Part shown: positions 10,975 through 41,082 of the stretch, piece after piece
Layout: every line of letters begins with the position of its first letter
Numbering within the stretch: position 1 is the stretch's first letter
Source of the DNA: Nitrosomonas sp. HPC101
GTDB taxonomy: Bacteria; Pseudomonadota; Gammaproteobacteria; Burkholderiales; Nitrosomonadaceae
Length of the DNA: 64,000 nucleotides
Assembly (NCBI RefSeq): GCF_009833125.1
Contig: NZ_QRCC01000008.1
Coordinates: forward strand, 124,001-188,000
Reading direction: 5' to 3'
Notes under the pieces: generated by a model
Seen by the model: only the letters and a program-made list of their open reading frames with translations
Told to the model about the DNA's origin: nothing
Databases searched by the model: none
Made by a program: the position numbers and the translations under genes

Positions 10975-10987
10975 GATTGTTTCCCTC

Positions 10988-14766: not shown

Positions 14767-14832
14767 GTCACTTATTCCATCTTTACAGTCTTAGCTTTAG
14801 ACAACGGCTAAATGGTTTGGGGAGAGGAACAG

Positions 14833-16005: not shown

Positions 16006-17618
16006 TGGTTCGCATCAAAGATTATAAGACCAAGATACTTGATATCCCAACCGACCATGCGGCTCATTCAGAATCTATCAACGCATTAATTGCATTACCA
16101 GCAAACCCCCGCAACCATAATTTGATTGACTTGAGGCCATGGCTGGGGCGTGGCTTTGACGAATGGATTTGGGCAGTCACCACAGTATTGAAGGCGCGGC
16201 TCCACAGTGGGAATTTCTCCACCGCAACTATCGTGAGTTTCGCATCCAATGGGGTTAAGGTATTCCTGCCATATCTTACAGAAAACCAGGGAGACACGAT
16301 GCCCGCGCGACCCTCTGACGTAAGAATGGCCGATGTCTCGCGTTACATTGCTTGGCTAAAGCTCAAATATCCAAATGGATCCACAGCCAAGAACTATTAC
16401 TCCGCCTTCAAGGCGATTCTGGTTGGCCTGATGGATTATGGCTTTATCAACCAACACCCAGAAGTCTTGCTACCGAGCAACCCTTTTCCCAGGAATAGAG
16501 CGGTGACAAAAGGCGAGACCCCGTTAAGCCAAGCTGAAATGCAGCGATTGGCTATGGCACTTAAAACTGATCTTATTGCTATCCATCATGGACGATTCGT
16601 TGGATTGGAGTCGGAGGCCATTGTGGTTCTCATGCTCATCATTGGCATGCGTTCTGGCATCAATGTCACGCCACTTTTGGAAATGGAGCGGGACTGTTTG
16701 AGGCCACATCCCTTCATGCCTAACCTCATGCTGGTAAAAACCTTCAAACGCCGAGGAAGAGGTGCGCAGTCTACTTCATTGAGGCAGACCCACATCCACG
16801 ATCACGCAGCATCTATTCCGTTGGATGGTGTTGCTGTTCTCAGGAAAGCCTTGGAAATAACTCAGACTCTGCTGCCAAGTGCGCCAGAAATCATCAGAAA
16901 TCGTGTCTGGCTTTACCGCTCTTCGCAACGTGGACAAAGCAAGGGGCAGATACTTTGTTTGAATATGGGTAGTGTATCCGAACTCACTAGAGCAATCGTC
17001 AAACGCCATGGATTGATGGCTGATAATGGTTCTGTTTTGCGGATAACTCTTGGGCGCTTGCGCAAAACTATGGAAAACCGTCTCTGGAAGCTCAGTGATG
17101 GCGATTTGCTTACGGTGTCCTCAATGATGGGACATTCCCCACAGATTGCAGACAACCACTATTTACACCTTGATGAACGAACCAAAGCAGAGGGTGCGAG
17201 ATTCATCGGTGAAGTATTTCCACACAAGCTGAGAGGGCAACAATTTGTACCAACACCAACAGGTAGTTGCAAAGACAGTTTGCAAGGTGCTCTCGCTCCC
17301 AAAGATGGTTCAACACACTGTGCAGAGTTCACGCATTGCTTAGGTTGTCCAAGCTATGCCATTGTGGGAACAGTCCAGGATTTACACCGACTGTTTAGTT
17401 TCCAGCGTTTCCTGATATCGGAAGTGAATTACTATGCCACGGGAGAGTGGCAAGAATGGCAAGGCCACCATCACGACCTCATTGCGCAAATCGACAGAAT
17501 TGCAATCGAGAACTTCTTGCCTGCGATAGTGGAACAAGCCAAGGCACAGGCCACTAGTACCCCGCATCCATTCTGGGCAATACGCATGCGCCAGTTGCAA
17601 CTGAATAGAGCTGAGTAG
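16005..17618 (+). CDS. Tyrosine recombinase 2 of the umuC element (TnpB-like)
   Basis: 537 residues starting at the ATG that overlaps the previous stop. The catalytic core is recognisable by Arg in IIGMRSGINVTPLLE, RLRKT in the HxxR position and GHSPQIADNHYLHL with the Tyr nucleophile. The usual first His of HxxR is Gly here, a substitution tolerated in some large recombinases. The C-terminal Cys/His segment (CAEFTHCLGCPS) suggests a zinc-binding addition. It is the middle gene of the trio. Confidence 0.85.
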   Translation: MVRIKDYKTKILDIPTDHAAHSESINALIALPANPRNHNLIDLRPWLGRGFDEWIWAVTTVLKARLHSGNFSTATIVSFASNGVKVFLPYLTENQGDTMPARPSDVRMADVSRYIAWLKLKYPNGSTAKNYYSAFKAILVGLMDYGFINQHPEVLLPSNPFPRNRAVTKGETPLSQAEMQRLAMALKTDLIAIHHGRFVGLESEAIVVLMLIIGMRSGINVTPLLEMERDCLRPHPFMPNLMLVKTFKRRGRGAQSTSLRQTHIHDHAASIPLDGVAVLRKALEITQTLLPSAPEIIRNRVWLYRSSQRGQSKGQILCLNMGSVSELTRAIVKRHGLMADNGSVLRITLGRLRKTMENRLWKLSDGDLLTVSSMMGHSPQIADNHYLHLDERTKAEGARFIGEVFPHKLRGQQFVPTPTGSCKDSLQGALAPKDGSTHCAEFTHCLGCPSYAIVGTVQDLHRLFSFQRFLISEVNYYATGEWQEWQGHHHDLIAQIDRIAIENFLPAIVEQAKAQATSTPHPFWAIRMRQLQLNRAE

Positions 17619-17628
17619 GGAGACAGCC

Positions 17629-19443
17629 ATGGTAATACAGATACCGAAGGCTTATGACTTATTGGCAGCCCAATCCATATCAGTCAAAGGACTATCTGAT
17701 TTCGACAGATCCAATATTATAGTCAGCGCTGTAGTTGATATGGATGGTAACAATCATGTTCTATCCAGATTTGGTGATCCTGTTTGGGACTTCAGGCCCT
17801 ACTTTGAGCAATCAAACGTGGCAGACGGTCAAAAATACATTCTTTGGCCGGACGATTGCCCACAAGCTATGGTCGATGACTGTAAGGCTGTCTTGTATGC
17901 ATGGTTCAAGCGGGGACTTCCTCACTCGAAGCCTCCCATCGCCATGGGCGTCTGCCAAGCGGCCATAGCCTCGGCAATACCGACGATGCGCTGGTTAACA
18001 ACATTGAACATTAGAAAATTCGACCAAGTTAAGCCCATTCATATTGCGAACTATGTTCATTACACCCAATCCAGACTGACCCGTAACGCACAAAGCGTCT
18101 ACGATAGCTTGCGTATATTGGATTTTTTATGGGTGTTTCGTAACGAGACGTCATCCCCTCTTGCCATGTGCCCTTGGGGAGAGAGCTCGCTGTGGCGAAT
18201 CTGCGGTTTAGCAAAACAAGTCGGTGGCCAGTTCGGGCGAACTGAAACCGGCAAGACCCCCATCATCCCCCCAGATGTACAGGCTAAGATCTTCAACCAT
18301 TGCGAACAGATTCTCGCGTCGGCCCCGAAACTTCTTAACAAGCGCGATGCCGGTAAGTTGGGTCATAGAAATCCCGCATTGATCCGGATTCGGGATGCTG
18401 CACTCTATATCCTGTCGATTACCAGTGGCATGCGCAACGAAGAGGTCATTGGGATTGAAACAGGGTCATGGCGGAGTGAAATGTGTGACGGAGTAGAATA
18501 CCACTGGGTTGCTACCACGGAGCACAAAACAGGAAAAGGCAAGGTCGAGTTCCTGATACCGGAGCTAACAGTGAAGGTCCTGGACATGATGAGCCACTAT
18601 GCAAAGCCTCTTCAAGAGGAGCTTTCTCGTGAAATTGAGGAACTGATGAGAAATTCCGAGCTACGAGGTTTTAAGGAACGAATGCTACGGTTGGCAAAAG
18701 CTAAGAGAGATGTGAACAAGCTATTTCTATGTACAAGTATGTCTGGGCAGAGTGAAGCTTCAGGTTATCATGTTGATGCGCTGTCCAATGGTGCATCAAA
18801 GATCTCCTTCCGGCGATTGGCTAAGGCAGCTGGGACAGATTGGCTACTAGCTCCCCACCAATGCCGCAGAACCTATGCCCGGAATATCGTCGAATCTCGG
18901 ATGGGGCGCGCGTCGCTAGTATTTCTCAAGTGGCAATTCAAACATTCCAGCATCAGTATGACGCAGTTATATGCATCCAACCCAATTCAAGATACGTTGC
19001 TGTTTAATGACATTCTGGATGAGATGACTGAGTTCAAGGTCGATCTGATTGAATCTTGGCTTAGTGAGCAACCTTTAAGCGGTGGTGCTGGACGCAAAAT
19101 CAAAAAGGCACGCATTATCGCTCTGGAAAATCGAAAGGCATTATTAGCTGAGACGGCGAGTCAGGTTCACATCCGTGCTACGGGTCACGGATGGTGTCTC
19201 GCACAAGAAAAGGGATGTGGAGGTGCGGGCTTGTATGAAGCTACTCGATGCGTTGGATGCAAGAACGGAGTCATTGACAAATCCTTCACGGAAATATGGA
19301 AAGGTATCTACGAACAACAAACCGAATTGCTGGCCATCGACGATGCTGGACCGGCTGTCAAGCAACGTGCTGAGCGTGACGTTAAGTGGGCTCGCCAGGT
19401 CATGGTAGAACTTGGCGTTCTGTCGAAACAGCAGGTAAGTTAA
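17629..19443 (+). CDS. Tyrosine recombinase 3 of the umuC element
   Basis: 604 residues, starting 10 bp after the second recombinase gene. It has Arg in SGMRNEEVIGIE, the HxxR box in APHQCRRTYAR and Tyr in SMTQLYAS. A C-terminal Cys-rich stretch (GWCLAQEKGCGG, then CVGCKNG) again suggests a zinc-binding region. Length is close to Tn554 TnpB (about 630). Having this protein in addition to the other two sets the element apart from classical two-recombinase Tn554. Confidence 0.85.
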   Translation: MVIQIPKAYDLLAAQSISVKGLSDFDRSNIIVSAVVDMDGNNHVLSRFGDPVWDFRPYFEQSNVADGQKYILWPDDCPQAMVDDCKAVLYAWFKRGLPHSKPPIAMGVCQAAIASAIPTMRWLTTLNIRKFDQVKPIHIANYVHYTQSRLTRNAQSVYDSLRILDFLWVFRNETSSPLAMCPWGESSLWRICGLAKQVGGQFGRTETGKTPIIPPDVQAKIFNHCEQILASAPKLLNKRDAGKLGHRNPALIRIRDAALYILSITSGMRNEEVIGIETGSWRSEMCDGVEYHWVATTEHKTGKGKVEFLIPELTVKVLDMMSHYAKPLQEELSREIEELMRNSELRGFKERMLRLAKAKRDVNKLFLCTSMSGQSEASGYHVDALSNGASKISFRRLAKAAGTDWLLAPHQCRRTYARNIVESRMGRASLVFLKWQFKHSSISMTQLYASNPIQDTLLFNDILDEMTEFKVDLIESWLSEQPLSGGAGRKIKKARIIALENRKALLAETASQVHIRATGHGWCLAQEKGCGGAGLYEATRCVGCKNGVIDKSFTEIWKGIYEQQTELLAIDDAGPAVKQRAERDVKWARQVMVELGVLSKQQVS

Positions 19444-25672: not shown

Positions 25673-25794
25673 TTGGTCTGTCCGGTTTTACTTGACCAGG
25701 TCACAGGTATCCTTTGCTCTCTGTTTAATTGATAATGTAACGTGACGCGCTTCGCGTTTCAAGTGTTATTTGCTGATCAGGCTAATTAATTAGG

Positions 25795-25930
25795 GGTAGA
25801 CCCAACAGTTGTGTCACCAGCCGCCAGTTGGACAATTTGAATGCCGGAAAACACATGTTTTCCGATACCGAATTGCCAATCTAAAATGTCATATTCAGAA
25901 GACGATTGCACCAGTTGATTGGGTGTAACA
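25795..25930 (+). repeat. Long direct repeat, copy 1 (flank plus Tn402-type end)
   Basis: This segment recurs at 28363-28499 with a few differences and six extra bases in the second copy before the transposon end. It includes a hairpin built on GGAAAACACATGTTTTCC. The two copies bracket the 2.5-kb SEC-C/nuclease gene region. Confidence 0.8.
25887..25911 (+). repeat. Tn402/Tn5053-type terminal repeat, copy A
   Basis: The 25-bp end starts TGTCATATTCAGAAGACGAT and continues TGCAC. It matches the class 1 integron/Tn402 terminal repeat with one extra change (A for T at position 7). The following CAGTTGATTGGGTGTAA is also typical of the tniA-side end. No transposase gene follows here. Confidence 0.75.
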
Positions 25931-26190: not shown

Positions 26191-26228
26191 CTCTAAAGGA
26201 TGGGATTTTGGTGAGGAGAGTTGTCGGA

Positions 26229-28326
26229 ATGCGTTCTGAACAAGAGATTTTTGACGAGTTGGCAAGCCTCTGCGCGTCGCCGGGCTACGCGCATGCCGTT
26301 GCCTACTTGTGCTCGCGTGACAACATGATCCGCTATTCGGGGGAGATGACGGCCGAGGACATGCAGCACCTCTTTTCGAAGAGCCGGCTGATCCGCACCG
26401 AGACATCGACCCTCATCGGACTCATGCTCAAAAGCCCGATTGACTACACGCTTCCAGCCCCCCCGGTCCTTGAAAAGTATATCGAATCCACGGAAGCCTT
26501 GCTAGAAGAGATCCACCACGCGATGTCGGCCTCGTTCTGGCAGGACATCGATCCCGCCAAGATCGCCGAGGAAGGCTTCAATCCTTTCACGAGCGGCGCT
26601 GCACTGCGCGAACCAATCTTCTATGGTGGTGAGTCAGCGTACAGCTTTCAGTACCGCGACTTTTCCCCTGCGAAGTACGCAAACGATGACCCGTGGCTCA
26701 TCGCCAACAGGGGCTTTTCGATCCACGATGCGCGTAACGTCGTCTTTGCCATTTCGCGATTGCAGGATGAAAAGTCGATCAGCGTCATGCACTCCATGCG
26801 CGGCACGTCCCAAGAAACGTGGACCTTCTTGCCCGGCAATCGTAGATAGGGTCCTGTCCGCATTTGCAGTCCCGCCAAGCGCGTGCAACGAGCAGTTCAA
26901 GGCCCTGCACGATTTCAACATCGCCAACGCCAGTCCGCTCATCGGCATGCCGGATGGCACCTACCTGCTCTTCCACATCTACAGCCTTGTGGAGGCGCTG
27001 TATGAAGCGCCGTTCTACTGGATGGGCGCTGACAAGGCCTATGTCAGCACGGCCATGCAGAACCGCGGCGTCTTTACCGAGCAGTTCGCCGTTGAGCGCC
27101 TGCGGCAGGTCTTCGGCGCGGAGAACGTTCTTGCCAACATCGACATCTACGAGTCAAAGGGCACCAAGCTCGCTGAAATCGATGTGCTGGTGCTTTTCGG
27201 CAATCGCGCCCTGGTGCTGCAGGCGAAATCTAAGCGCCTGACGCTTGAGGCCCGGCGTGGTAATCACCTGCAGATCAAGGAGGACTTCAAAAAGAGCATT
27301 CAGGATTCCAGCGATCAAGCCTATCGCTGCGCAAAGCTGATCGAGGAAGGCAGGTGCTCCTTCAAAGATGCCGCCGGCAACGCAGTGACGTTGCCAGCAA
27401 GCCTCAAGCGGATCTACGTGATCTGCCTGATCTCAAACCACTATCCGGCGTTGAGCTTTCAGGCCCGGCAATTCTTGAAGTTCACGGCGACTGACACGAT
27501 TTCTCCGCCCTTCGTCATGGACGTTTTTGCGCTCGACGCGATGACCGAAATGCTCAGCTCGCCGCTGCACTTCTTAAGCTATGTGGATCGCCGGACTGGG
27601 TACACCGACAAGCTGATGGCGTCACATGAGCTGACGATCCTGTCCTACCACCTGAAGCAGAATCTCTGGCTGAACGACGAACATGACATGGTCATGCTGG
27701 ATGACGATATCTCTGCCGACCTGGATCTGGCGATGCTGGTTCGGCGCGAAGGCATCCCTGGCAAGGGCACTCCAGAAGGCATCCTGACGCGGTTCAGCGC
27801 GACGGCACTGGGGCGCATGGTTAAGGCAATCGAAGCCCGGCCTCACCCCGCGACTATCGACCTTGGCTTCACGCTGCTGACGCTCGGCGAAGACACCGTG
27901 CTCGAGGTCAGCGCCGGTATAGACCTGCTTGCCAAGCAGGGCATCGCCGATGGTAAGAACCATGATGTCACCGTGGGGCTGGGCAGTGGTGGCACCGGCC
28001 TCACGATTCACTGCAACGACGACCCGATTGAGGTTGCCGGCCCGGCGCTCCAAAGGCATTGCCACGCGCGGAAATACACCGAGCACGCCCAGACTTGGTT
28101 CGGGGTCTGCGTGCGCCCGATGGATCAGGCGCTGCGCTTTGGGATCAATCTTGAATTCCGATGGGAGCAGGACGACACCATGGACGCGCTCACGAAGAAC
28201 ATGGGCAAGCCAGGCAAGCTGACCTCTCTGCTGCGAGAGGCGGCCAAGGCGCGAACCAAGGTGGGGCGCAATGACCCTTGTCCATGTGGGAGCGGTAAGA
28301 AATACAAGAAATGCTGTGTGACGTGA
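26229..28326 (+). pseudogene. SEC-C domain nuclease-like protein, frameshifted (about 698 aa if repaired)
   Basis: Two consecutive frames make one protein. The first runs from the ATG at 26229 and ends at 26849. The second continues to 28326. Removing one A at 26838-26839 gives ...PGIVDRVLSAFAVPP and a continuous frame. The central part (FTEQFAVERLRQVFG, then AEIDVLVLFGNRALVLQAKS) resembles PD-(D/E)xK nuclease-related (NERD/Mrr-like) domains, with Asp and a Gln-Ala-Lys variant of the E-x-K box. The C-terminus VGRNDPCPCGSGKKYKKCC is a zinc-binding SEC-C motif. The gene is clearly more GC-rich than its neighbours, so it arrived separately. An anti-mobile-element nuclease is plausible but not shown. 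Confidence 0.75.
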
Positions 28327-28362
28327 GGTGGTGGAAACGCAGTAGCCGCCTTGTTTATTAGT

Positions 28363-28499
28363 GGTAAACCCAACAGTTGTGTCACCAGCCGCCAGTTGGA
28401 CAATTTGAATGCCGGAAAACACATGTTTTCCAACACCGAATTGCCAATCTAAAAATTACCGTCATTTTCAGAAGACGACTGCACCAATTGATGAGGTAT
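28363..28499 (+). repeat. Long direct repeat, copy 2
   Basis: Second copy of 25795-25930. It leads straight into the terminal repeat of the Tn402-like transposon at 28460. The shared flank shows that both terminal repeats once sat at the same target sequence, or that a duplication copied flank and end together. Confidence 0.8.
28460..28484 (+). repeat. Tn402-type terminal repeat, copy B (tniA side)
   Basis: After the first base it reads GTCATTTTCAGAAGACGACT then GCAC, followed by further TniA-site-like repeats ending in TATGCACGAA and TATGCACCAA before the tniA start at 28601. This matches the multi-repeat tniA-side end (IRt) of the family. Confidence 0.85.
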
Positions 28500-28600
28500 G
28501 AAGCCTGTTGTGCATATGGCTCTTGACAGCATAATATCAGTACTCATATGCACGAAACTCGTATATGTTCAATACTCGTATGCACCAAAGCGCGGTAAGC

Positions 28601-28969
28601 ATGGCGACCGATTTCGCACCGAATACCGAGCATGACGTGGCCACTCTGCCAGAACAGACATTGGAGCATGCGCTACGACGCGCCGCGATCATTGAGTCGC
28701 TGGCACTGTCGGAAACAGTCTGGCATGAAGCGGCCGACGCGGCAGTCCAGGCTATCAATGAGTCGATCATTGAAGCACGGCACAACCCCGAGACGGCGCG
28801 CTCTCTGTTCGAGTTGGCTTCCTACGGTCGGCACGATCCGGCATCACTGGAACAGTTGCGCGCCACCTTCGCTAAGGAAGGCATTCCTCCAGAATTTTTG
28901 TCACATTACAAGCCTGATGGATCCTTTGCATACCTTAGAAAGAATGACGGGTTAAGTGACAATTTTTGA
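28601..28969 (+). pseudogene. tniA: tniA 5' stub fused to an unrelated tail
   Basis: The first 50 or so codons match the TniA N-terminus: VATLPEQTLEHALRRAAIIE and ALSETVWHEAADAAVQA. After about 28752 the similarity stops and a different 70-codon tail follows (ESIIEARHNPETARSLFELA...), up to the stop at 28969. In Tn402/Tn5053 the order is tniA-tniB-tniQ-res-tniR, so the tail may be the end of tniQ, joined by one large deletion. The DDE catalytic domain is gone. The start is the ATG 16 bp after the last TniA-type repeat. Confidence 0.75.
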
Positions 28970-28993
28970 CGATCAGTAATTCCTGATTCATAC

Positions 28994-29021
28994 TGTCACA
29001 TAATCGAACGTATATGTGACA
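28994..29021. promoter_or_regulatory. res subsite (resolvase crossover/binding dyad)
   Basis: TGTCACATA (28994-29002) and TATGTGACA (29013-29021) form a 28-bp dyad just upstream of the resolvase gene. Size and place fit subsite I of a serine-resolvase res site. A partial half site (AGTGACAATTTTTGAC) lies near 28954-28969. Confidence 0.7.
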
Positions 29022-29030
29022 GATGAAACA

Positions 29031-29645
29031 ATGCTAATTGGCTACATGAGGGTATCAAAGGCAGATGGGTCTCAGGCGACTGATCTGCAACACGATGCAC
29101 TGATCGCGGCGGGTGTCGATCCTGCTCATATCTATGAGGATCATGCTTCTGGCAAACGTGAGGATCGTCCTGGTCTGGCAAGCTGTCTGAAAGCACTACG
29201 GAAAGGTGACATACTGCTTGTTTGGAAACTGGACAGGCTCGGACGGGATCTGCGACACCTGATCAATACCGTATACGACCTTACCGTGCGCGGTATTGGC
29301 TTGAAGGTGCTAAGCGGGCACGGTGCGGCCATCGATACCACGACTGCTGCCGGCAAACTGGTTTTCGGTATTTTCGCGGCTTTGGCTGAATTCGAGCGGG
29401 TGTTGATAGCAGAACGTACTAAAGCTGGCTTGGCCTCAGCCCGGGCACGCGGCAGGAAAGGCGGCCGCCCTTTCAAGATGACTACTGCCAAGCTGCGTCT
29501 GGCGATGGCCGCAATGGGTCAGCCAGAAACAAAGGTAAGCGATCTGTGCCAGGAACTCGGTATTACACGACAAACACTGTATCGACACCTTTCACCAAAA
29601 GGGGAGCTGCGCGAGGATGGGAGAAAATTGCTGACCGGGAAATAG
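29031..29645 (+). CDS. tniR: Serine resolvase TniR (Tn402/Tn5053 type)
   Basis: 204 residues from the ATG at 29031; the frame is open from a GTG at 29016, but that lies inside the res dyad. MLIGYMRVSKADGSQATDLQ carries the catalytic Ser9, followed by the Arg-rich WKLDRLGRDLRHLI and the invariant LAEFERVLIAERT. The C-terminal helix-turn-helix is VSDLCQELGITRQTLYRHL. It resolves cointegrates at res, the last step of replicative transposition in this family. It is intact and is the only complete tni gene left. Confidence 0.92.
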   Translation: MLIGYMRVSKADGSQATDLQHDALIAAGVDPAHIYEDHASGKREDRPGLASCLKALRKGDILLVWKLDRLGRDLRHLINTVYDLTVRGIGLKVLSGHGAAIDTTTAAGKLVFGIFAALAEFERVLIAERTKAGLASARARGRKGGRPFKMTTAKLRLAMAAMGQPETKVSDLCQELGITRQTLYRHLSPKGELREDGRKLLTGK

Positions 29646-29824
29646 ATCGGTGATTGTGTAGTTTAAACAAAGCGGAAAAATAGCCGTTAATACTAAGAGA
29701 ATAGCGTGCTATCTAATAAACAGAATCACAGTGTTATATCTATTTATTAAATTGCCTACTTAACAACTAACTTACTTAAATACTTCGATCTAACTAAAGT
29801 TAAATAGCATCAATTCCAAAGTTA

Positions 29825-29854
29825 TTGGACAAAGTTCCTTAGATATTCTATTAC
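29825..29854 (+). promoter_or_regulatory. Possible promoter of the zinc-ribbon/DCD operon
   Basis: TTGGAC (29825-29830) and TATTAC (29849-29854) are 18 bp apart, 16 bp before the ATG of the zinc-ribbon gene with AGGA between. The 225 bp from tniR to that gene is AT-rich and holds no other gene. Anti-phage dCTP deaminases of the AvcID type are paired with an inhibitory small RNA, which could lie here, but I see no defining structure. Confidence 0.4.
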
Positions 29855-29870
29855 ACCAATAGGAATAAAT

Positions 29871-30047
29871 ATGTCAGCCATCGTGAGTCATACAAGATGT
29901 CAGAAATGTCAAAAAATTCTTAATGTCTCTGAGCTCAAAGACAACCCAGATGGCAATGGAAGAATTTGCACTGATACCGTTGAATGCAAGAAGAACGAAC
30001 AAGAAAATATCAAGAGATCTAATCACGCACCCAAGACGACTCGCTAA
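29871..30047 (+). CDS. Zinc-ribbon-like small protein (58 aa) upstream of the DCD gene
   Basis: The ATG at 29871 follows AGGA by 6 bases. The product has CQKCQK near the N-terminus and two more cysteines (RICTDTVECKKN) about 20 residues on, giving a possible four-Cys zinc site, then a basic tail. I do not recognise the family. It ends 45 bp before the deaminase gene on the same strand, so the two are likely co-transcribed and it could regulate or sense for that enzyme. Too short for standard gene callers, but start, ribosome site and composition support it. Confidence 0.6.
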   Translation: MSAIVSHTRCQKCQKILNVSELKDNPDGNGRICTDTVECKKNEQENIKRSNHAPKTTR

Positions 30048-30092
30048 AACGATCTGCTTAGCTCACTGTTAGATTTCCTCAATAGGCATAGC

Positions 30093-31942
30093 ATGGAAGC
30101 ACAAAACAAAACAGCGAATTCCCACGCACTGGAATGCATCTACGAAGAGATCGGAAACTTTGTCGTCATTGGGTTGACTGGACGTACTGGATCAGGATGT
30201 TCGACGGCTGCCGAGATATTGTCATCGTCATCACTAAATCTTCCTGATGTTAGTCACTCCCATTATGTTGAAAATGAAAGAAGAAAATTCCGCATCGTTA
30301 AATCTTACATAGAAAAAAACTGGATATCTTTTCGGTGGCTACAAGTTCGGTCTGTTATCACAAGATACATTTTGACCATGAACTTCAATGAGCTGGTTAA
30401 TAATCTTTCCAAGATATTAGAAATTGAAACTTCAAAAATTAATAAAAGCTTTGATCCTTTCAAGGCAGAGTATGACGAAGCTCATGATCGGATCGAGAAA
30501 TACCTTGCCCTCAAAGACGACACGATGGAAGAAATCAAAATAAAAAAAAAAGATGCATATGAAATTTACTTCGAATGGTTGCCTGATTTCTCTAATAAGC
30601 TGCGAGATCGACTTCAAAGCATATCTCAAATTTCGTATACCAAGTTCTATCAATCGGTAGGAGATAATATTCGCGCGTCAGGAACCCCGAGCTCAAATGA
30701 GTTTGACTCCAAAAAAATTTTTGAGCTTGCTTCAACAATAAACAAAGTCATTAAATCCGCACACCATGTTGCAAGGGAAAAAGGTGAACCATGCCACATA
30801 GTGATAGATGCGATAAGAAATCCTTTTGAAGCTGTATATTTAAGTGAAAGGTACGCTGATTTCTATCTTTTTTCGATAAATACCAGCAATGATAATAGGC
30901 TCGCGCACTTAAGAACTAGCCATAAATTCAGTGAGCAGCAAATCATAGATCTGGACAAAAAGGAATACCCAGATAGACTGCTTGGAGACCAGAAGTTTGT
31001 ATCTCAGAATATTCAAAAATGCATTGAAATATCTGATATACACATTAATAACCCGAGAACAGATCAGTATGGGCATAGCGAGTTGCGCTCTCAGCTCGCT
31101 TGGTACGTCTCCTTAATCTTGCATCCTGGTCTAGTTACGCCGACTGCAACCGAGCGTTGTATGCAACTCGCCAGTAGTGCCAAATTGAACTCTGGTTGTA
31201 TCTCACGACAGGTTGGCGCAGTCGTAACTGATCGTTCTTATTCAGTGAAGGCGATTGGTTGGAATGATTCACCGCAAGGCCAGGTTCCATGCTTGCTTCG
31301 GAGTGCCAAAGATCTCATGAATGGTTCGGATGAGGTTGCATACAGTATTTATGAGAAGAATAATGACAAATTCAGGGATGCGCTTATAGGGAAATATGGA
31401 CAACACAAGTGTTCGAATATTCTGAATGGAAGAAATTTATCTTTTTGTTTTAAGGACTTGAAAAACGAGGTTGATGGGGAGAAAAATCAAGTTCACACAC
31501 GTTCCTTACATGCAGAGGAAAATGCTTTTCTGCAGATCACAAAGTATGGGGGCAGAAAATCTCTGGCGGAATCTTGTTCACGACAGCTAGCCCATGTGAA
31601 TTGTGCTCAAAAAAAGCCTACCAGCTTGGCATAAAGGAAATTGTTTACATCGACCCTTACCCTGGAATTGCTAATGAATACACGTTAGCAACGGGTAATA
31701 ATTCGCCAAAACTTATACTCTTCAGGGGAGCCATCGGCAAGTCATACCACAAGCTCTACACTCCGATTATGCCGTTTAAGGACGAGCTTGAAACCTTGCT
31801 TGACTTGAAGAAAAACCCGGACAAAAGGGATATTAAAATCAAAGATCTTGAGCAGGAGAACTCCCGCCTAACAGATGAGGTGGCTCGACTCAATGAAGAA
31901 ATCAAGAATGGTGGGCAGAAAACATCATCTGCACAACACTGA
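30093..31942 (+). pseudogene. Anti-phage dCTP/dCMP deaminase (DCD/AvcD type), frameshifted
   Basis: The N-terminal domain is a P-loop nucleotide kinase-like fold with FVVIGLTGRTGSGCSTAAEI, including the GSGCS variant seen in AvcD/DCD proteins. The C-terminal domain is a zinc cytidine deaminase: HAEENAF in the first frame and SPCELC in the second. The first frame leaves the deaminase near 31556 and stops at 31634. Adding one A to the run in GGCAGAAAATCT gives GRKISGGILFTTASPCELC and continuity to 31942, a protein of about 616 residues ending in a coiled coil. Family members deplete dCTP/dCMP during phage infection. As read, the zinc site is split and the enzyme would be dead unless the shift is an error or is bypassed. 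Confidence 0.87.
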
Positions 31943-31943
31943 G

Positions 31944-32273
31944 TGTCATTTTCAGAAGACGATTGCACCAGTTGATTGGGTGTAACGGTTGTTGTACAAA
32001 AGACTCTTAATAGTCACGTGTCAATAATTTGTTGTACCAATCTCGACTGTACAAATACTCATATGCACAATAGCAAGAAGTGGCTCAGACATCAGACAAT
32101 CACATCTTCGCTAGCCACGTTTTCTTGATTGCATCCGCAGAGTAAATGCTGTCAAGACTTATTGCTCATCACGGGCCGCTGGCAAACAGGCTTGCGCTAT
32201 ACCAAAATATTTCGGTAAATATCGGATGTTACCGACTTCTGACATTTAGTGCGGTTGTCTTCTGAAAATGACA
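31944..32273 (+). mobile_element. 330-bp mini-element with Tn402-type inverted ends
   Basis: Copy C (31944-31968, starting TGTCATTTTCAGAAGACGAT) and the inverted copy D (32249-32273) enclose 280 bp with no gene. The left part still has TniA-site-like repeats (TTGTACC, CTCATATGCACAA) but no tniA start. This is the size and form of a MITE-like derivative that a Tn402/Tn5053 transposase could act on. Flanking 5-mers are CTGAG and CTGGT, sharing only the first three bases. Confidence 0.7.
32249..32273 (-). repeat. Tn402-type terminal repeat, copy D (opposite orientation)
   Basis: Read on the minus strand it begins TGTCATTTTCAGAAGACAAC and ends CGCAC. It is the only end facing the other way and can pair with copies A, B or C. 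Confidence 0.8.
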
Positions 32274-32314
32274 CTGGTTTCGTCTTGCGCCATCCAAAAG
32301 AGCAGGGAAGGGGG

Positions 32315-33462: not shown

Positions 33463-34698
33463 TCATTCAAGCCAGCTTACAAAATCACCACGTGCAGCCT
33501 GCAGCCGCAATTGTGCTTCTGCCAGACCAGATACTAACTCCAGATAACCAAGCTGCGTCTCATAACGCATGCGAGTGGCATCGAGAAGCTCGACGATCGA
33601 ACTCTTGCCCAATCGATAAGCATCTTCTGCCATCTGCTTTAAAGAAGGTAAACGTGGCTCCAGCTGTTGCTCAAAATGATCAAACGCTGCTGTCCGCTGA
33701 GTGACCAGAGCAGTATAGCGCTGCACATCAGCCTGCACTTTGGCTTCTGCCAGATAACGTCGCAGACCGGCTGATTGTTCCTCTGCTTTTGCCCTGTCAA
33801 AAGCACCTCCCCGGGTTCCAAAAATCGGTACTTCGATCGAAATACCAATGGTATTGCTTGCTCCGTATGGCGCACTGGTCCAGAATCGGCCAGCAGTCAG
33901 CGAGACATTCGGGAAGCGTTCCCGATGGGCAACCTCGGTATTCGCTCTGGCGGCTGCTTCCTCCCGGCGGGCAGCAATGAGTACCGGATGCTTGTCGGGG
34001 TTGCCGGATACCCCCATATCGACGTTCTTCAAGGGTAGCAACTCACCAGTACCATGTGGTCTCCAGTCTGAAAAACCAAGCAACGTGGCGAGATGGGCCT
34101 GGCGATCAGCCAGTTCCGCCTTGGACTCCACTGATCGTGTATGCCATGTAGCCTGCTCGATATCAAGGCGCAGCAGGTCATACTGGCTTGCCATACCACT
34201 CATCTGACGGCCTGCTACGATATTCCGCAAATGGTCCAGCTCCGTCATGCTTGCCATCAGAGTAGCGTGTTTTTCCTGGGCAGCAAGCAGTGCGATGAAG
34301 GCAGCGCCGGCATCGGCTGCAAGCTCATTGCCGGAAGCATCAAAATAAGCCTGTGCAGCTCTGATGCCTTGCTCGGCGGCTTCAACACGGGCACCGCGCT
34401 GACCAGCGATGAGAAGAGGTTGTTCGATCGAAATTTCCTGCGCTCTGGCACCTTCGAAATCGGTAAATGCACGTGGTTGATGTGAGTGGTTATAACTGAT
34501 CGTCGGGTTTGGATAGGCACTGGCAGTACGCCGTTCGGCACGGGCAACAGCAATATTCTGCCGTTCGAGTGCCAGACGGGGGCTGGCCTTTCTGGCCAGA
34601 GTCAGTACACCGGCCATATCCACTGATTCCGGCGGGTTTTGTGCCAGAACCGGTAACGCTATCAGCAGGAACACAAAAGCTGTCAAACGGGGAATCAT
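33463..34698 (-). CDS. czcC: Outer-membrane efflux protein of the Czc system (TolC family)
   Basis: 411 residues with a signal peptide (FVFLLIALPVLAQN) and the two-fold TolC/OEP helical pattern. Blocks such as SAYPNPTISYNHSHQPRAF, GISIEVPIFGTRGGAFDRA and RYETQLGYLELVSGLAEAQL match CzcC-like proteins. It forms the outer-membrane channel of the tripartite pump. Its start overlaps the czcA stop by 4 bp, so it is the last gene of the czcB-czcA-czcC operon. Confidence 0.9.
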   Translation of the reverse strand: MIPRLTAFVFLLIALPVLAQNPPESVDMAGVLTLARKASPRLALERQNIAVARAERRTASAYPNPTISYNHSHQPRAFTDFEGARAQEISIEQPLLIAGQRGARVEAAEQGIRAAQAYFDASGNELAADAGAAFIALLAAQEKHATLMASMTELDHLRNIVAGRQMSGMASQYDLLRLDIEQATWHTRSVESKAELADRQAHLATLLGFSDWRPHGTGELLPLKNVDMGVSGNPDKHPVLIAARREEAAARANTEVAHRERFPNVSLTAGRFWTSAPYGASNTIGISIEVPIFGTRGGAFDRAKAEEQSAGLRRYLAEAKVQADVQRYTALVTQRTAAFDHFEQQLEPRLPSLKQMAEDAYRLGKSSIVELLDATRMRYETQLGYLELVSGLAEAQLRLQAARGDFVSWLE

Positions 34699-37600
34699 GC
34701 GTCAACCTCTTCAGGTGTTCGAAGTTGCTCGGAGGTAATCAGGCGATAGATCACGGGCAACACGAATAATGTAACAGCCAGCGTGGTCAGCATGCCACCA
34801 ACCACGACCAGAGCAAACGGGCGTTGAGTCTCGCTGCCGACACCCGTAGACAGCGCCATTGGCAGTAAACCGAAGAGAGCGAGTAGAGAGGCCATCAGTA
34901 CGGAACGCAACCGCTCCGTCGCACCCTCCAGAAGAGCAGGCAGCAATGCTTCTCCATCCCGTCGGCGTGCTTCAGTTGCCGACAGAACGAGTACCCCTAT
35001 CAGCGATACCTGACCAAGCAATGCGATGAAGCCAATGGCAGCACTGACTGAAAGCGGGATGCCGGCAATCAGGAGAGCAAAGACGCCACCGGTCAGAGCA
35101 AAAGGAACGGTTGCCAGGATTGCAAAGACGCTGCGACCGCTGTTCATGGCCATATAAAGCAGACCCAGTACCAGCAGTACGGCAACCGGCACCACCAGCT
35201 TCAGGCGGTTGGCAGCACGTTCCTGATTCTCAAATTCACCGCCCCAGACAAAATAATGTCCGTCCGGTGCCTTGATTCCAGCATCGACAGCTGCGATCGC
35301 ATCCTGGATGACAGATCCCATATCACGATCTTTGATATTGAATTTGAGCGCGAGAAAACGGACATTGCCTTCTCGCACGATCGAAGCCGCCCCATTGGCA
35401 ATCTTGATGTCAGCCAGTTGCTGCAAAGGGAGACGTGCTCCGGATGGTGTCGTGATGATCAGACCAGCAATTTTGTCAAAATCATCGCGAACAGGTTTGG
35501 GCAGCAAGAGACGTATCGGAACAGGTCGCTCTCCTTCCCAGTACTGTGTCACGATTCGACCGGAAAGAGCCGTTTCAATTGTTCTGGCAGCTTCTTCGAT
35601 TGGCACCCCTGCACGTGCCAGTGCGGAGCGATCGAGATGGATGCGCAATTGCGGGCTTGATACATCGCGATACAAATCCAGTTCAGTAATGCCTGGTATG
35701 TCCCTGAGCGCGGCTTTTGCCTGCTTCAAGGTGTCACGCATGAGTGCCAGGTCGTTGCCGAAAATCTTGAGCACAACCTTGCCTCTTACGCCACTCACCG
35801 CTTCTTCGACACTGTCCCTGATCGGCTGCGAAAAGTTGAAACGTACACCGGGAATTTCCATGAGTGCGTTACGCATGGCCTCGATCAGTTGCGGTTTGTC
35901 CCATCCACTCTGCCATGTCTCCTGAGATTTCAGTCGTACGAAGGTTTTCAGCATGTTGACGCCTTCGTTATCAGTACCATCCTCCGGCCGGCCATGCTCG
36001 GTATGTACATCAAGCGTTTCGGGAAAATGACTCAGGCGCTTGTGGACTTCCTGCAGGATCTCCTGGCTTTTTTCCAGGGCAATACTGGTGGGCATCTCGA
36101 CAAAAACAGCCAGATCTCCTTCATCCAGTTCCGGTAGGAATTCCGTTCCCAACCGGGAAAATGCAAAAGCACTTGTCAACAAGAGTGCGGTCGCCAGGAT
36201 CAAAACCGTACCACGCAATGCCATGGTTCGGTTCAGCAGCTTGTAATAGCCGCCCCGCAGTTTTCCAATCCAGCGGGGCTCGGTCAATCTGGCATGTTCC
36301 GGTTTGAACAGGCAGGCACAAAGTGCCGGCACTACCGTCAATGAGAAAATCAGTGCTCCGCCCAGAGCAAAGGCGTAAGTGAGGGCAAGTGGCCGGAAAA
36401 TACGGCCCTCCACCGATTGCAGTGTAAACACTGGCAACAGGGCAGCAATGATGATCAGCATGGCAAAGAAGATAGGACGCCCGACTTCTTTTGTCGAACG
36501 GATCACCAGATGCAGTACCGCCTTTTTATTGGCTGGCCGCTCATGCCGGATGGCATGGATGACGTTCTCAACCAGTACCACTGCCCCATCAACCAGGATA
36601 CCGAAGTCAATGGCTCCCATGGAAATCAAGTTGGCAGGCAATCCCAGCGTATGCAGACCAAGAAAGGCGACCAGTAACGACAAAGGAATGACTACTGCAA
36701 CAACTACCGAACCGGCGATACTGCGCAGAAAAAGCCAGACGATACCAACTACGAGCAAAAAACCATGCAAGAGATTCTCATGCACGGTCGCCAGCGTAAG
36801 ATCCACCAGTACGCTGCGGTCGTGCACTGCTTCAATCTTCATACCAGCCGGAAGAATAGTCGAATTGAGCATTCCGACCTGATGATGAATTTCATCCAGT
36901 ACAAGCGAGGGATTTTCTCCGCGCCGCATTAAAACCAGACCTTCTACAACTTCTTTTCCGTCGATTCCTCCTACCGATCCTCGTCGCGGTGTGGCAGCAA
37001 GTTTGACGATTGCCACATCACTGACCGTCAGTGCTGAACCGTTACTGGTCTTCAGAGGAATCTTTTTGATATCCTCAATTGAATCGATATAGCCGATACC
37101 GCGAATGGTGAGCTCCTGGTCCCCATGACGCAGAAATCCACCACCTACATTGAGATTTGCTTTGCGAATTGCTTCTTCAAGTGCTTCCAGGGCAAGCCCG
37201 GCAGCATATAACTTCAGTGGATCAGCCTCGATATGGATTTCTTTGAGAAATCCACCGAAAGACACGACATCGGCAACGCCCTGTATTCGTCGCAAGACAC
37301 TGGCGATATTCCACTGCATCTCCGAACGAAGCTGGTAGAGATCATGACGATCGCTCATGACCCGGAAGCGATAGATCTTGCCAAGCGGAGTTGCCTCCGG
37401 CGCCAGTACCGGCATGACATCTTCCGGCAGATCAGCCTGGAATAATCGTTGCCTCACCAGCATGCGGCTGATGAAAGGATCGGCATCGTCATTGAAAATC
37501 ATTGTCACGAGTGATAGCCCGAAGAGACTTTCACTGCGCAACAGGGTCATGTCTGGAGCGCCATTGAGCACCCGTTCCAGAGGAATAGTCACCTGGCGCT

Positions 37601-37784
37601 CAATCTCCTCGGCGGCATAACCCGGCATCTGAGCGATCACCTGTACCTGCGCGTTGGTGACATCTGGAAAAGCCTCGATCGGGGTATCAAGATAGGCGCG
37701 CATACCTAAAATAACGATGACCGCAGCGATGAATAAGGCCGCCAGACGCCGATGAACACAATGTTTGATGATCAGATTCAGCAT
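34695..37784 (-). CDS. czcA: Heavy-metal RND transporter CzcA (HME type)
   Basis: 1029 residues from the ATG at 37784 (MLNLIIKHC), the usual start context for the family; the frame is open 11 codons farther, overlapping czcB. Twelve membrane segments and two large periplasmic loops are evident. The proton-relay segment DFGILVDGAVVLVEN in the fourth helix is that of HME transporters for Zn/Co/Cd/Ni rather than the Cu/Ag group. It drives proton-coupled export of divalent cations from periplasm and cytoplasm through CzcC. The gene is intact. Substrate among these metals is inferred. Confidence 0.94.
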   Translation of the reverse strand: MLNLIIKHCVHRRLAALFIAAVIVILGMRAYLDTPIEAFPDVTNAQVQVIAQMPGYAAEEIERQVTIPLERVLNGAPDMTLLRSESLFGLSLVTMIFNDDADPFISRMLVRQRLFQADLPEDVMPVLAPEATPLGKIYRFRVMSDRHDLYQLRSEMQWNIASVLRRIQGVADVVSFGGFLKEIHIEADPLKLYAAGLALEALEEAIRKANLNVGGGFLRHGDQELTIRGIGYIDSIEDIKKIPLKTSNGSALTVSDVAIVKLAATPRRGSVGGIDGKEVVEGLVLMRRGENPSLVLDEIHHQVGMLNSTILPAGMKIEAVHDRSVLVDLTLATVHENLLHGFLLVVGIVWLFLRSIAGSVVVAVVIPLSLLVAFLGLHTLGLPANLISMGAIDFGILVDGAVVLVENVIHAIRHERPANKKAVLHLVIRSTKEVGRPIFFAMLIIIAALLPVFTLQSVEGRIFRPLALTYAFALGGALIFSLTVVPALCACLFKPEHARLTEPRWIGKLRGGYYKLLNRTMALRGTVLILATALLLTSAFAFSRLGTEFLPELDEGDLAVFVEMPTSIALEKSQEILQEVHKRLSHFPETLDVHTEHGRPEDGTDNEGVNMLKTFVRLKSQETWQSGWDKPQLIEAMRNALMEIPGVRFNFSQPIRDSVEEAVSGVRGKVVLKIFGNDLALMRDTLKQAKAALRDIPGITELDLYRDVSSPQLRIHLDRSALARAGVPIEEAARTIETALSGRIVTQYWEGERPVPIRLLLPKPVRDDFDKIAGLIITTPSGARLPLQQLADIKIANGAASIVREGNVRFLALKFNIKDRDMGSVIQDAIAAVDAGIKAPDGHYFVWGGEFENQERAANRLKLVVPVAVLLVLGLLYMAMNSGRSVFAILATVPFALTGGVFALLIAGIPLSVSAAIGFIALLGQVSLIGVLVLSATEARRRDGEALLPALLEGATERLRSVLMASLLALFGLLPMALSTGVGSETQRPFALVVVGGMLTTLAVTLFVLPVIYRLITSEQLRTPEEVDA

Positions 37785-37791
37785 CGTGTTC

Positions 37792-38913
37792 TTAAAGTAG
37801 TTGCTCAGCGGTGCCATCGAGTAACAGGGCGCCTTTCACCACAACTTCCTCGCCGGCTTGCAGCCCTTCCAGGATGATCACCCGGCCGTCGTATGAATTT
37901 CCGGTACGTACCGGACGAGGCTCGAAACTGCCATCGGATCGCTGCACATAGACAATCTGCTGACTATCTTCTTTGATCAGGATTGCCGAGGCTGGCAGAT
38001 TCAAGCTGGTATCGCTCACGGTACTCAGCCGCACTTCTGCCAGCATGCCGGATGAGAGATATCCAGTCTTTTCCTTGAAAGAAAGATAAACGGGTATACG
38101 TCGCTGTTCGCCATCGACTGCCTGTCCGATACCATCAACAATCGCATCCAGTCTCGTATCAATGGCCGGCACGCGGATTCTAGCTGATTGACCAACAGTA
38201 ACATGACTAATTTCACTTTCCGAGATATCGGCAATTGCCCACAGCTCATCGGGATCCCCGATTTCGACCAGAGCATCTCCTCCTGGAGATACTACGGTGC
38301 CGATACTGACCTTGATATCCAGAACGACGCCATCTACCGGGGCACGCAGAACGAAGCGATCTCCTTTACCTTCCCCTATCAGGGCGGTCATGTGCTTTGC
38401 CCGCTCAAGCTCAGCACGCGCTTCGCGAACGGCGGTTTCAGCACTGAAACGTTCGACCTCCAGACCGACCCCCTTTCTGATCATCTCGTTTTGACGTTTC
38501 AGCAAATCTTCAGCGGCAGCATTCCTGGCTGCAGCCTGATTGAGTATGGCACGAGCTGCTGCCACGTCAGCGCTCTGCAGCGTCATGAGCGGTCTTCCGG
38601 TCTTGACGGTTTCGCCTGGCCGCACGCCGATGGAAAGGACGCGCGCTACCACAGGGGAGCCGATGGCCGTCATTGCTTGCGGCCGGAAGACTATTCGTCC
38701 AGGCAAGACAGCTCCCAATGTATCCGTCCTTGTGCCCACAGCTTCAACCGCGACAAACTGGCGAGATGCTTCTGCCATTACCAGACCGCCGACACGATCA
38801 CTGACTTTATGTTCTACCGCCTGCTCGGGTACGATTGCACCTGAGCACGCTGCCAGACAGGCAATCACCAGCAATATGCCAAGGCGGCGAAGAACGAAGT
38901 TCATTATTGCCAT
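37792..38913 (-). CDS. czcB: Periplasmic adaptor (membrane fusion) protein CzcB, lipoprotein
   Basis: 373 residues from the ATG at 38913, chosen because AAAGGGG lies just upstream; the open frame is longer. It has a lipoprotein signal (GILLVIACLAAC, then SG), the barrel-sandwich and hairpin region with long coiled coil (RAILNQAAARNAAAEDLLKR), and a beta-barrel (RIRVPAIDTRLDAIV). It links CzcA and CzcC. It is the first gene of the operon and divergent from the two-component genes. Confidence 0.9.
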   Translation of the reverse strand: MAIMNFVLRRLGILLVIACLAACSGAIVPEQAVEHKVSDRVGGLVMAEASRQFVAVEAVGTRTDTLGAVLPGRIVFRPQAMTAIGSPVVARVLSIGVRPGETVKTGRPLMTLQSADVAAARAILNQAAARNAAAEDLLKRQNEMIRKGVGLEVERFSAETAVREARAELERAKHMTALIGEGKGDRFVLRAPVDGVVLDIKVSIGTVVSPGGDALVEIGDPDELWAIADISESEISHVTVGQSARIRVPAIDTRLDAIVDGIGQAVDGEQRRIPVYLSFKEKTGYLSSGMLAEVRLSTVSDTSLNLPASAILIKEDSQQIVYVQRSDGSFEPRPVRTGNSYDGRVIILEGLQAGEEVVVKGALLLDGTAEQLL

Positions 38914-38937
38914 TACGGCCCCTTTCAGAATATAACT

Positions 38938-38963
38938 CACGCTCCCTTTGTTGCGGGAGTGTG
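38938..38963. promoter_or_regulatory. Dyad in the czc/regulator intergenic region
   Basis: CACGCTCCC (38938-38946) and GGGAGTGTG (38955-38963) form a near-perfect inverted repeat with an 8-nt spacer, in the 104 bp between czcB and the divergent response regulator gene. It may be a binding site for the regulator or a leader hairpin. Confidence 0.45.
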
Positions 38964-39017
38964 TAACATAGCAAAACACTCCTTAAAAAGTTCTGACAAT
39001 GGTTCAAAAACAACAAG

Positions 39018-39689
39018 ATGAGAATTCTCCTGGTTGAGGATGACAGCGCCTTGCGCGATACACTTTCTCAGGCATTGCGACTGGCTGGTTATGGGGTCGA
39101 TCCCGTATCGGACGGACGGGCAGCCGATAACGCTCTGGCAGCCAATATCTATGATCTGGTAGTACTCGATCTTGGTCTGCCTTATCTCGATGGAATGACA
39201 GTGCTGCGACGTCTGCGCGATCGTAAGAATCGCACGCCGGTTTTAGTGCTAACTGCCCGTGACGGGATCAATGAGCGGGTGCAGGGACTTAAAACCGGAG
39301 CGGATGATTACCTCACCAAACCTTTCGCCTTGCCAGAACTGGAAGCCCGTATTGAAGCACTGCTTCGTCGTGCTGCCGGCGGGCAGGTACGGTTGACTCA
39401 CGGGCCGCTTGAATTTGATCTGGATGGCCATGTTGTCTCAATCAATGGTGAACCTGCTCATTTCTCTGTGCGAGAAATGATGGTGCTTGAAGTATTGATG
39501 CAGCGGGCCGGGCAGGTCGTGATCAAAACGCGCCTTGCCCAGAAAATCAGTAATTGGGATGACGAAATTGGAGTCAATACGATCGAGGTCTATATTCACC
39601 GGCTACGCAAGAAACTGGAACCTTGGGGGATACGCATCCGGACTATCCATGGACTTGGCTATCTGCTGGAACCCTATGCCAAAATTTGA
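39018..39689 (+). CDS. OmpR-family response regulator, likely controls czc
   Basis: 223 residues: a receiver domain with acidic DD at 8-9, the phosphoacceptor Asp51 (VVLDLGLPYLDG) and Lys in YLTKPFAL, then a winged helix (VNTIEVYIHRLRKKLEPWGI). Divergent placement beside czcBAC and the partner kinase indicates a CzcR-like role in metal response. ATG has only a weak ribosome site (AACAAG). It overlaps the kinase gene by 14 bp. Confidence 0.9.
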   Translation: MRILLVEDDSALRDTLSQALRLAGYGVDPVSDGRAADNALAANIYDLVVLDLGLPYLDGMTVLRRLRDRKNRTPVLVLTARDGINERVQGLKTGADDYLTKPFALPELEARIEALLRRAAGGQVRLTHGPLEFDLDGHVVSINGEPAHFSVREMMVLEVLMQRAGQVVIKTRLAQKISNWDDEIGVNTIEVYIHRLRKKLEPWGIRIRTIHGLGYLLEPYAKI

Positions 39690-41082
39690 GCACTTGTCTC
39701 TGCGACAACGACTGCTACTCTGGCTGCTGCCTCCCATCATACTGTTGACCGGTATCTGGATAGGTGTTGCCTACGCAATCATCCTGCATTTCGCCAATCT
39801 GGCTTATGATCGGGCACTGGAAGACACGGTACAGACCCTGGCCAGCCAGGTTCATATTGAACCAGATCGAGTCGAAATCAATCTGCCACCCGCTGCTCGC
39901 CGTATGCTGGAGTTTGATCAGGTAGATACAGTTTATTTCAGTGTATCGGATGAGCATGGACATCAGCTGGTTGGTAACCATGTGCTGCCGTCCAATCCGG
40001 ATGATGATAGGGCACCAGGAGAAACCTGGTTCTACAACAATATGGTCGATGGAAAGCATTTGCGCCTGGTAGAGTACACAATTCCTAACCGGCATACCGG
40101 CGAAGCAATTCATGTTCGGGTAGCCGAGACACTGAACAAACGCAAAATCCTTTCACGGGAAGTATTGACTTACTACATGCTGGCACCCCAACTCCTCTTT
40201 CTCTTCGGTATCGGGCTGCTTGTCTGGTACGGTATCGGTCGCGGCATTGCCCCTCTGAGCCGCATTCGTGATGCCATCGCCCAACGTACCCATGAAGACT
40301 TAGGTCCATTGATCGAAACCGGGCTGCCTGCAGAAGTCCGTGAACAGGTACACGTGATCAATGATCTGATGGCACGTCTGGGGCGAACGATTGCAGCCCA
40401 GCGACGCTTCATTGCTGATGCGACCCATCAGTTACGTACCCCTATCACCGTACTTCGAACCCAGATCGAACTTGCGCTGCGGGCTGATCCGAGTGATCTG
40501 CGCACTTTTATTACAAAACTGGATGCGACCTCGGCTCGTCTTTCCCGCCTGACAAATCAGTTACTCAACCTGAATCGCGCAGAAGCCGGTTTGACGGGTG
40601 CACCAGAATTTGCCCGTTTGGCAGTCGGTGAATGGACTGAAGATGTTGTTGCCGAGCATGTACCGATGGCGCTGGATAAGGCCATTGAAATCAGCGTTGA
40701 TATTGCGGAAGGCATACCGGTAATACGCGGTGATCGACAACTTCTCTCCGAAATGCTGGCCAATCTGATCGATAATGCCATCCGCTATACGCCCGCAGGA
40801 GGAAGAATCAAAGTTGACGTACGACAGGCGAGAGAAAATGTCATCCTGACCATTACGGATAACGGACCAGGCATTCCACAATCAGAGAAACAACATGTCC
40901 TGAAACGTTTCTACCGGGGAATCGAAACCGGCGCTTTTGTTGGAAGTGGTCTGGGACTGACAATTGCCCATGAAATCCTGATACTGCACGGTGGGCGAAT
41001 CGAACTTGTTGCCGTATCGAAAGACAATTCCGGATTATGCGTAACGGTTGAAATCCCTGTAACCATTGCGACTTCCCGATGA
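39676..41082 (+). CDS. Sensor histidine kinase, partner of the czc-linked regulator
   Basis: 468 residues from the ATG inside the end of the regulator gene; the open frame extends farther upstream but only this start gives a normal TctE/CzcS-like N-terminus. Two membrane helices (about 13-40 and 168-188) enclose a periplasmic sensor of about 130 residues. The H-box is DATHQLRTPITVL with His251. The ATPase domain has NLIDNAIRYTP, DNGPGIP and GSGLGLTIA. It likely senses periplasmic metal and phosphorylates the response regulator. It is convergent with rhlE. Confidence 0.9.
   Translation: MPKFEHLSLRQRLLLWLLPPIILLTGIWIGVAYAIILHFANLAYDRALEDTVQTLASQVHIEPDRVEINLPPAARRMLEFDQVDTVYFSVSDEHGHQLVGNHVLPSNPDDDRAPGETWFYNNMVDGKHLRLVEYTIPNRHTGEAIHVRVAETLNKRKILSREVLTYYMLAPQLLFLFGIGLLVWYGIGRGIAPLSRIRDAIAQRTHEDLGPLIETGLPAEVREQVHVINDLMARLGRTIAAQRRFIADATHQLRTPITVLRTQIELALRADPSDLRTFITKLDATSARLSRLTNQLLNLNRAEAGLTGAPEFARLAVGEWTEDVVAEHVPMALDKAIEISVDIAEGIPVIRGDRQLLSEMLANLIDNAIRYTPAGGRIKVDVRQARENVILTITDNGPGIPQSEKQHVLKRFYRGIETGAFVGSGLGLTIAHEILILHGGRIELVAVSKDNSGLCVTVEIPVTIATSR

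Follow-up and report, generated by a model that had tools for sequence, protein, structure and literature searches.

The window, a 64,000-nt stretch of the Nitrosomonas sp. HPC101 genome, most probably carries a decayed, or at least split, anti-phage dCTP deaminase (DCD) of a mobile clade. The gene lies downstream of an apparently unrelated gene for a small four-Cys protein, probably drawn from the integron-cassette pool, and the pair sits on the tni-deleted remains of a Tn402-like element by a 330-bp MITE-like element.

The deaminase is encoded on the plus strand in two overlapping reading frames, 30093–31634 (513 residues) and 31574–31942 (122 residues). The initial annotation had treated 30093–31942 as a single gene, but no intact reading frame spans it. 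The first frame contains the P-loop GRTGSGCS at residues 30–37 and the HAE motif, whereas the second supplies PCELC and the C-terminal tail. Both zinc deaminase motifs, HAE and PCxxC, are therefore found, but in separate frames, and the GSGCS P-loop variant and split HAE/PCxxC motif described initially are indeed there. The assignment as a deaminase was likewise borne out. The PADLOC dCTPase model matches the two pieces with E values of 3.6e-102 and 2.6e-30, and NCBIfam NF041025 scores them at 287.5 and 79.0 bits against a curated cut-off of 400 bits. The final ~24 residues of the first open reading frame (ORF) are out of frame. Judged from the match ends, the window has one base fewer between the two matched parts than 21 of the 22 clade loci compared; the exception is L013, whose alignment extends beyond the split point. 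The two frames thus belong to a single anti-phage dCTP deaminase gene that a net loss of one base has split. Its membership in the known family is sound, and its activity is a prediction from sequence. Because the first frame stops before PCELC, which holds the second pair of zinc ligands, the copy as sequenced should not give a working deaminase. The gene is a new member of a defence family already known, and has probably decayed.

All 18 clade members that were checked are single ORFs of 567–652 residues. It is conceivable, if somewhat doubtful, that the gene is intact in the cell as a working single-gene defence and that the split is an error of the draft assembly. The net loss amounts to one base only, both pieces keep their identity to clade members (36–65% and 44–69%) with no additional stop, and the genome is a draft of 2.52 Mb in 31 contigs. 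On the other hand, a nearby gene at 26208–28326 is likewise in two frames, and this is compatible with decay of the region as well as with poor assembly there.

The relationships of the deaminase were examined in a tree of 35 rows in which the window is represented by the first-frame part alone. The window groups with 23 other rows in a clade (support 100/100) that excludes 11 AvcD-type rows. Among the latter is the plasmid protein of ETEC H10407, and we take this protein to be the ETEC AvcD of PMC10511110, as far as the available part of that paper describes it. A P-loop without lysine, HAE and PCELC occur together in all 23 other clade rows, and the P-loop reads GRTGSGC[ST] in 21 of them. 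The Lys-less P-loop is thus not peculiar to the window gene but occurs throughout the clade. A DCD relative was found on 153 viral contigs; 80 were kept, and 23 of these are near full-length. PCELC is present in 22 of the 23 and LHAEENAF in 21. Among the viral-contig loci, L104 is shorter and carries neither motif, L100 lacks the HAE string, and the P-loop of L102 is off pattern. Members of the clade are rare. A search of 369 sampled genomes of the class at E 1e-40 matched the window's own genome alone. Strong full-length DCD matches occur in 11 other genomes of the family, two of which (L037 and L038) belong to the window's clade.

Eight intact clade members were tested against NF041025, with 387.2 bits for the Cupriavidus locus L006 and 396.8–425.5 bits for the remaining seven proteins. 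Four of the eight reach the cut-off, and the other four lie just under it, at 387–398 bits. The idea that the clade lies below the curated cut-off was dropped accordingly. The predicted structure of the intact L006 protein, a 65% relative of the window gene, has a mean pLDDT of 80. Its best Foldseek match is to dCMP deaminases (1vq2, E 6.7e-5), and further matches, at E 0.02–0.03, include dephospho-CoA kinase and adenylate-kinase-like folds. An N-terminal P-loop kinase-like domain is recognizable in the window DCD from GRTGSGCS.

Compared with AvcID and the anti-phage dCTP deaminases covered by NF041025 and PADLOC dCTPase, the window gene shares the P-loop domain and the HAE/PCxxC deaminase, is matched by the same family models and would, like them, presumably act by nucleotide depletion. 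It differs in that its clade is separate from that of the ETEC protein and in that HAE in this clade lies at residues 459–507, against 337–441 in the AvcD-type rows. In addition, its locus shows no detectable RNA antitoxin, and its coding sequence is split in two frames. DCDs were reportedly tested by Tal et al. in 2022. By analogy with the AvcID work, an intact member of the clade would be triggered by phage infection and would deaminate dCTP/dCMP, so that phage DNA synthesis would be starved.

The small gene (29871–30047, plus strand) codes for 58 residues with cysteines at positions 10, 13, 33 and 39. It was correctly placed directly upstream of the deaminase, which starts 45 nt further on and has the same orientation. 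Two relatives were found with tblastn: WP_012663343 of the Desulforapulum plasmid pHRM2a (E 2e-5), identical in 15 of 40 residues with all four cysteines kept, and a protein in genome G648 of the same class (E 2.5e-5). Between the window and the pHRM2a gene, the first and second codon positions agree in 23 and 27 of 40 codons and the third in 18. For the G648 gene the corresponding counts are 28, 30 and 17 of 51. Conservation is thus higher at the first two codon positions than at the third, the pattern expected of a protein, and the ORF is probably real. No further convincing member was detected in 125 genomes of the family, 369 sampled genomes of the class, 398 sampled genomes of the phylum, viral contigs or phages. 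An extra match from the class search, L053, was set aside as a relative; it reads like what we take to be the zinc ribbon of accD. A plasmid search with the G648 member gave one match at E 0.5 inside a 152-residue protein, which was also set aside, and the same search with the Desulforapulum member brought no real gain. Pfam and NCBIfam gave sub-threshold matches only. Single-sequence folding produced one model with a pLDDT of 76 and four at 57–61, and the best match of the fold in the PDB was at just E 1.5. The four-Cys protein probably adopts a fold built around a single metal ion.

Both relatives adjoin attC-like sites. On pHRM2a, the gene begins 211 nt after such a site. The G648 gene has small genes around it and is followed after ~380 nt by an attC-like site of 87 nt, the outer boxes of which agree at 7 of 7 bases; two further attC-like stretches were seen there by eye. 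These calls rest on form and partly on eye, and the attC finder is near chance around both relatives, with two sites (four hits on both strands) at L023 against a shuffle mean of 1.0 and one site at L067 against 1–4 per shuffle. The four-Cys gene is likely a cassette gene that comes from the integron-cassette pool. No DCD is found around the relatives within 10 kb on pHRM2a and 14 kb in G648, and the 50 plasmids that matched DCD do not include pHRM2a. The pHRM2a protein resembles that of the window in sequence and in its cysteines but differs in having an adjacent attC-like site and no DCD nearby.

The small protein had originally been proposed as a zinc-ribbon partner of the deaminase, with its absence beside other DCD genes set beforehand as the result that would refute this. 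That result was obtained: when the three small proteins were searched against 56 DCD loci at a threshold of E 0.1, none of these loci gave a homologue, whereas all three control loci, including the window's own, were matched. The 56 comprise 45 loci of the window's clade, assigned by tree or motifs, and 11 of AvcD type. Four of them (L086, L088, L097 and L098) have no upstream sequence and L019 has only 160 nt, and several of the loci from viral contigs nearly duplicate one another. The pHRM2a and G648 proteins miss each other at E 0.1, so a more distant homologue could escape the search. Small ORFs containing a Cys pair were noticed upstream of the DCD at L008, L010, L013, L014, L016 and L021, read from stop to stop, and at L087, L095, L096 and L099. 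They were taken as chance, because none resembles the four-Cys protein. At L095 and L096, a 35-residue ORF from TTG lies 10 nt before the DCD gene. That the four-Cys protein is a new antitoxin, sensor or activator of the deaminase is hardly credible: its position directly upstream and on the same strand at a gap of 45 nt speaks for it, but 0 of 56 DCD loci have a homologue, both relatives lack a DCD in the stretches covered, and the DCD cassettes L007 and L016 leave no space for a partner. The four-Cys gene is thus apparently unrelated to its neighbour, and nothing found links their functions.

The cassettes L007, from Vibrio intestinalis, and L016, from a metagenome-assembled genome labelled Flavobacteriales, each hold a DCD between two attC sites. 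The first attC lies 11 nt (L007) or 18 nt (L016) before the gene, and the stop codon either lies 3 nt before the next attC or overlaps it by one base. The attC finder gave 10 hits for L007 against 4.0 in shuffles and 4 for L016 against 0.0; a first, too strict finder had reported no sites. For the second finder, shuffled loci averaged 0–6.5 hits on both strands and 1–4 on one strand. Only these two loci, in which the gene lies between two similar sites, were counted as cassettes. Since the genes fill their attC-bounded cassettes, members of the clade can move with neither a partner gene nor a long 5' RNA. The cassettes have no room for a partner or for a leader RNA such as AvcI, given the minimum length of 171 nt in the available part of PMC10511110. 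Integrons are known to carry anti-phage cassettes, as far as the accessible portions of a review (PMC12409362) and of PMC12444791 describe them. Among the literature matches listed, integron and dCTP deaminase occurred together only as an unrelated mention, which is no proof of novelty.

The leader of the pair in the window is AT-rich (29654–29870, plus strand). No structured RNA was detected in it, and neither a terminator nor a sigma-70-like promoter was found. Rfam gave a single match over 28900–32300, to a snoRNA at E 0.68, and the folds of 29646–29870 and 29860–30092 were no better than those of shuffles (z 0.26 and 0.98). An RNA antitoxin like AvcI within 29646–30092, with the four-Cys ORF being incidental, is very unlikely. 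The 447 nt free upstream would be ample for AvcI, whose minimum length is ~171 nt according to the part of PMC10511110 available, and on ETEC p58 an annotated 61-residue ORF (WP_000070788) ends 12 nt before the deaminase. Against this stand the fold scores, the lack of a noteworthy Rfam match or a terminator in the stretches covered, the distant protein relatives of the four-Cys ORF, and the 11 and 18 nt between attC and gene in the cassette DCDs. The ETEC p58 ORF (L079:874–1059) is directly upstream of its dCTP deaminase, at about the place expected for AvcI, and is perhaps spurious. Gap length was also considered as a separator of the two DCD clades, but it fails, as the AvcD-type loci L028 and L030 have 14 nt after the upstream ORF.

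A second type of location was found in prophage-like contigs, where the 3' end of ssrA, identified by motif, lies beside the DCD in 11 of the 56 loci (L083–L085, L087, L092–L096, L099 and L104). In all five loci tested, tmRNA matches upstream of the gene score 30.9–34.9 bits, under the gathering score of 47. The ssrA 3' end is presumably the attachment site. The conserved DNA upstream of these genes was considered as an RNA antitoxin and rejected, as it contains the ssrA 3' end. By their motifs, the ssrA-adjacent deaminases belong to the window's clade, but they differ in being single ORFs next to which the four-Cys gene was not found. In 20 of 5426 E. coli genomes, matches span at least 80% of the L085 copy. 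Upstream of the DCD gene, on the minus strand by the ssrA 3' end, partial matches to the IsrM sRNA occur at L083, L085, L093 and L095, four of five loci, scoring 27–56.6 bits where the gathering score is 376.

In the window, a weak attC-like pair of boxes at 30017–30074 (plus strand) spans the end of the four-Cys gene and the gap, with the DCD start 18 nt further on, and is a possible cassette joint. We regard it as unlikely that the pair represents two integron gene cassettes with decayed attC sites. Only 15 of 2000 shuffles hold as much as this box pair, and the spacing resembles that of the cassette DCDs L007 and L016. However, the criteria were set after the sequence had been seen, a stricter finder is silent at this position, and there is no attC after the DCD. 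Integrase fragments in the same genome reach 123 bits with the integron-integrase model, below its cut-off of 265 bits, and this model also matches in 13 of 14 control genomes; for these two reasons our estimate for the two-cassette origin was lowered slightly. The fragments, at C14:130675–131049 (L070) and C11:27614–27826 (L072), have internal stops.

The carrier begins with a left Tn402-type terminal repeat at 28460–28484, whose first base is C instead of T. It is followed at 28565–28969 by the 5' end of tniA (from 28601) fused to the 3' end of tniQ (from ~28741), left over after most of tniABQ was deleted, and at 29016–29645 by a tniR-type serine resolvase (PF00239, E 2.5e-41), all on the plus strand. 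Tn402-type ends are present at 28460, 31944 and 32273, each as a 25-bp repeat of the TGTC type, and a fourth lies at 25887; none was found in 100 shuffles. The segment 28601–28741 matches 2630 plasmid records, with a transposase annotation in three of five among the matches listed, and 28741–29625 matches TniQ plus TniR at 82%. Among plasmids, the carrier is matched best by sequences from Nitrosomonas eutropha and N. europaea. The left end, tni fusion and tniR together are 89% identical over 1189 columns to N. eutropha plasmid p2. This similarity ends at ~29653, and after tniR, p2 carries other genes, which we count in favour of unrelated neighbours in the window. Of 125 family genomes, the window's own is the only one to match the whole 3.9-kb segment, and nine others match parts of it.

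The right end at 32273 pairs with the second left-type end at 31944, and the two bound the 330-bp MITE-like element (31944–32273, plus strand), of which a stand-alone copy (82%) is present on the N. europaea plasmid NZ_CP157070. The transposon proposed initially is therefore upheld in its Tn402 kinship and its resolvase, but complete tniA, tniB and tniQ genes are absent, no 5-bp target duplication flanking the ends was seen by eye, and the right end is part of a stand-alone element. The carrier is thus a tni-deleted Tn402-like remnant next to a MITE-like element. It shares with Tn402/Tn5053-type elements the terminal repeats, tniR and a tni remnant, but differs from them in lacking tniABQ and visible target repeats. 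The cargo lies between the dead remnant and the MITE-like element, and its movement by these ends is putative. Tn402-like integrons flanked by MITEs are known and, as far as the available part of PMC3934969 goes, likewise have a MITE-like element beside them; that MITE is a different one, of 439 bp, and its ends are said there to match no known transposon.

The NERD plus SEC-C gene at 26208–28326 consists of the overlapping frames 26208–26849 and 26623–28326. It is flanked by 101-nt direct repeats (25786–25886 and 28354–28454, 95%), each followed by a Tn402-type end. Elsewhere in the window, three adjacent plus-strand genes at 14812–19443 look like what we take to be tyrosine recombinases, as in recombinase-in-trio elements. 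The genes at 9820–12162 presumably encode TrbL/VirB6 and the replication protein TrfA and are perhaps the remains of an integrated plasmid, and those at 33463–41082 presumably encode heavy-metal RND efflux with a two-component system.

Several points weigh against a split deaminase next to an unrelated gene. The short same-strand gap would fit an operon, co-occurrence is thinly sampled in a small family with three members here, the four cysteines are kept, so the small protein may be under selection where it sits, and the split of the DCD may be an assembly error. In a different account, which we consider highly improbable, the DCD clade would be a true one-gene defence able to move as a bare cassette of integrons, with no AvcI-type RNA. 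The four-Cys family would then be a regulator or accessory carried on cassettes and united with the DCD on a single occasion, in this lineage, and the pair would form a defence unit of two cassettes on a Tn402-type carrier.

On the preferred reading of a split deaminase with an apparently unrelated neighbour, the locus illustrates that genes found side by side on one occasion are not necessarily partners. It places a known defence enzyme in several mobile contexts, namely integron cassettes, the ssrA attachment site and a Tn402-like remnant. The bare-cassette form of the DCD clade is a useful by-product of the analysis. If deaminases with a leader of their own of 11–18 nt are still protective, the clade would need no long cis-encoded RNA antitoxin, unlike AvcID.
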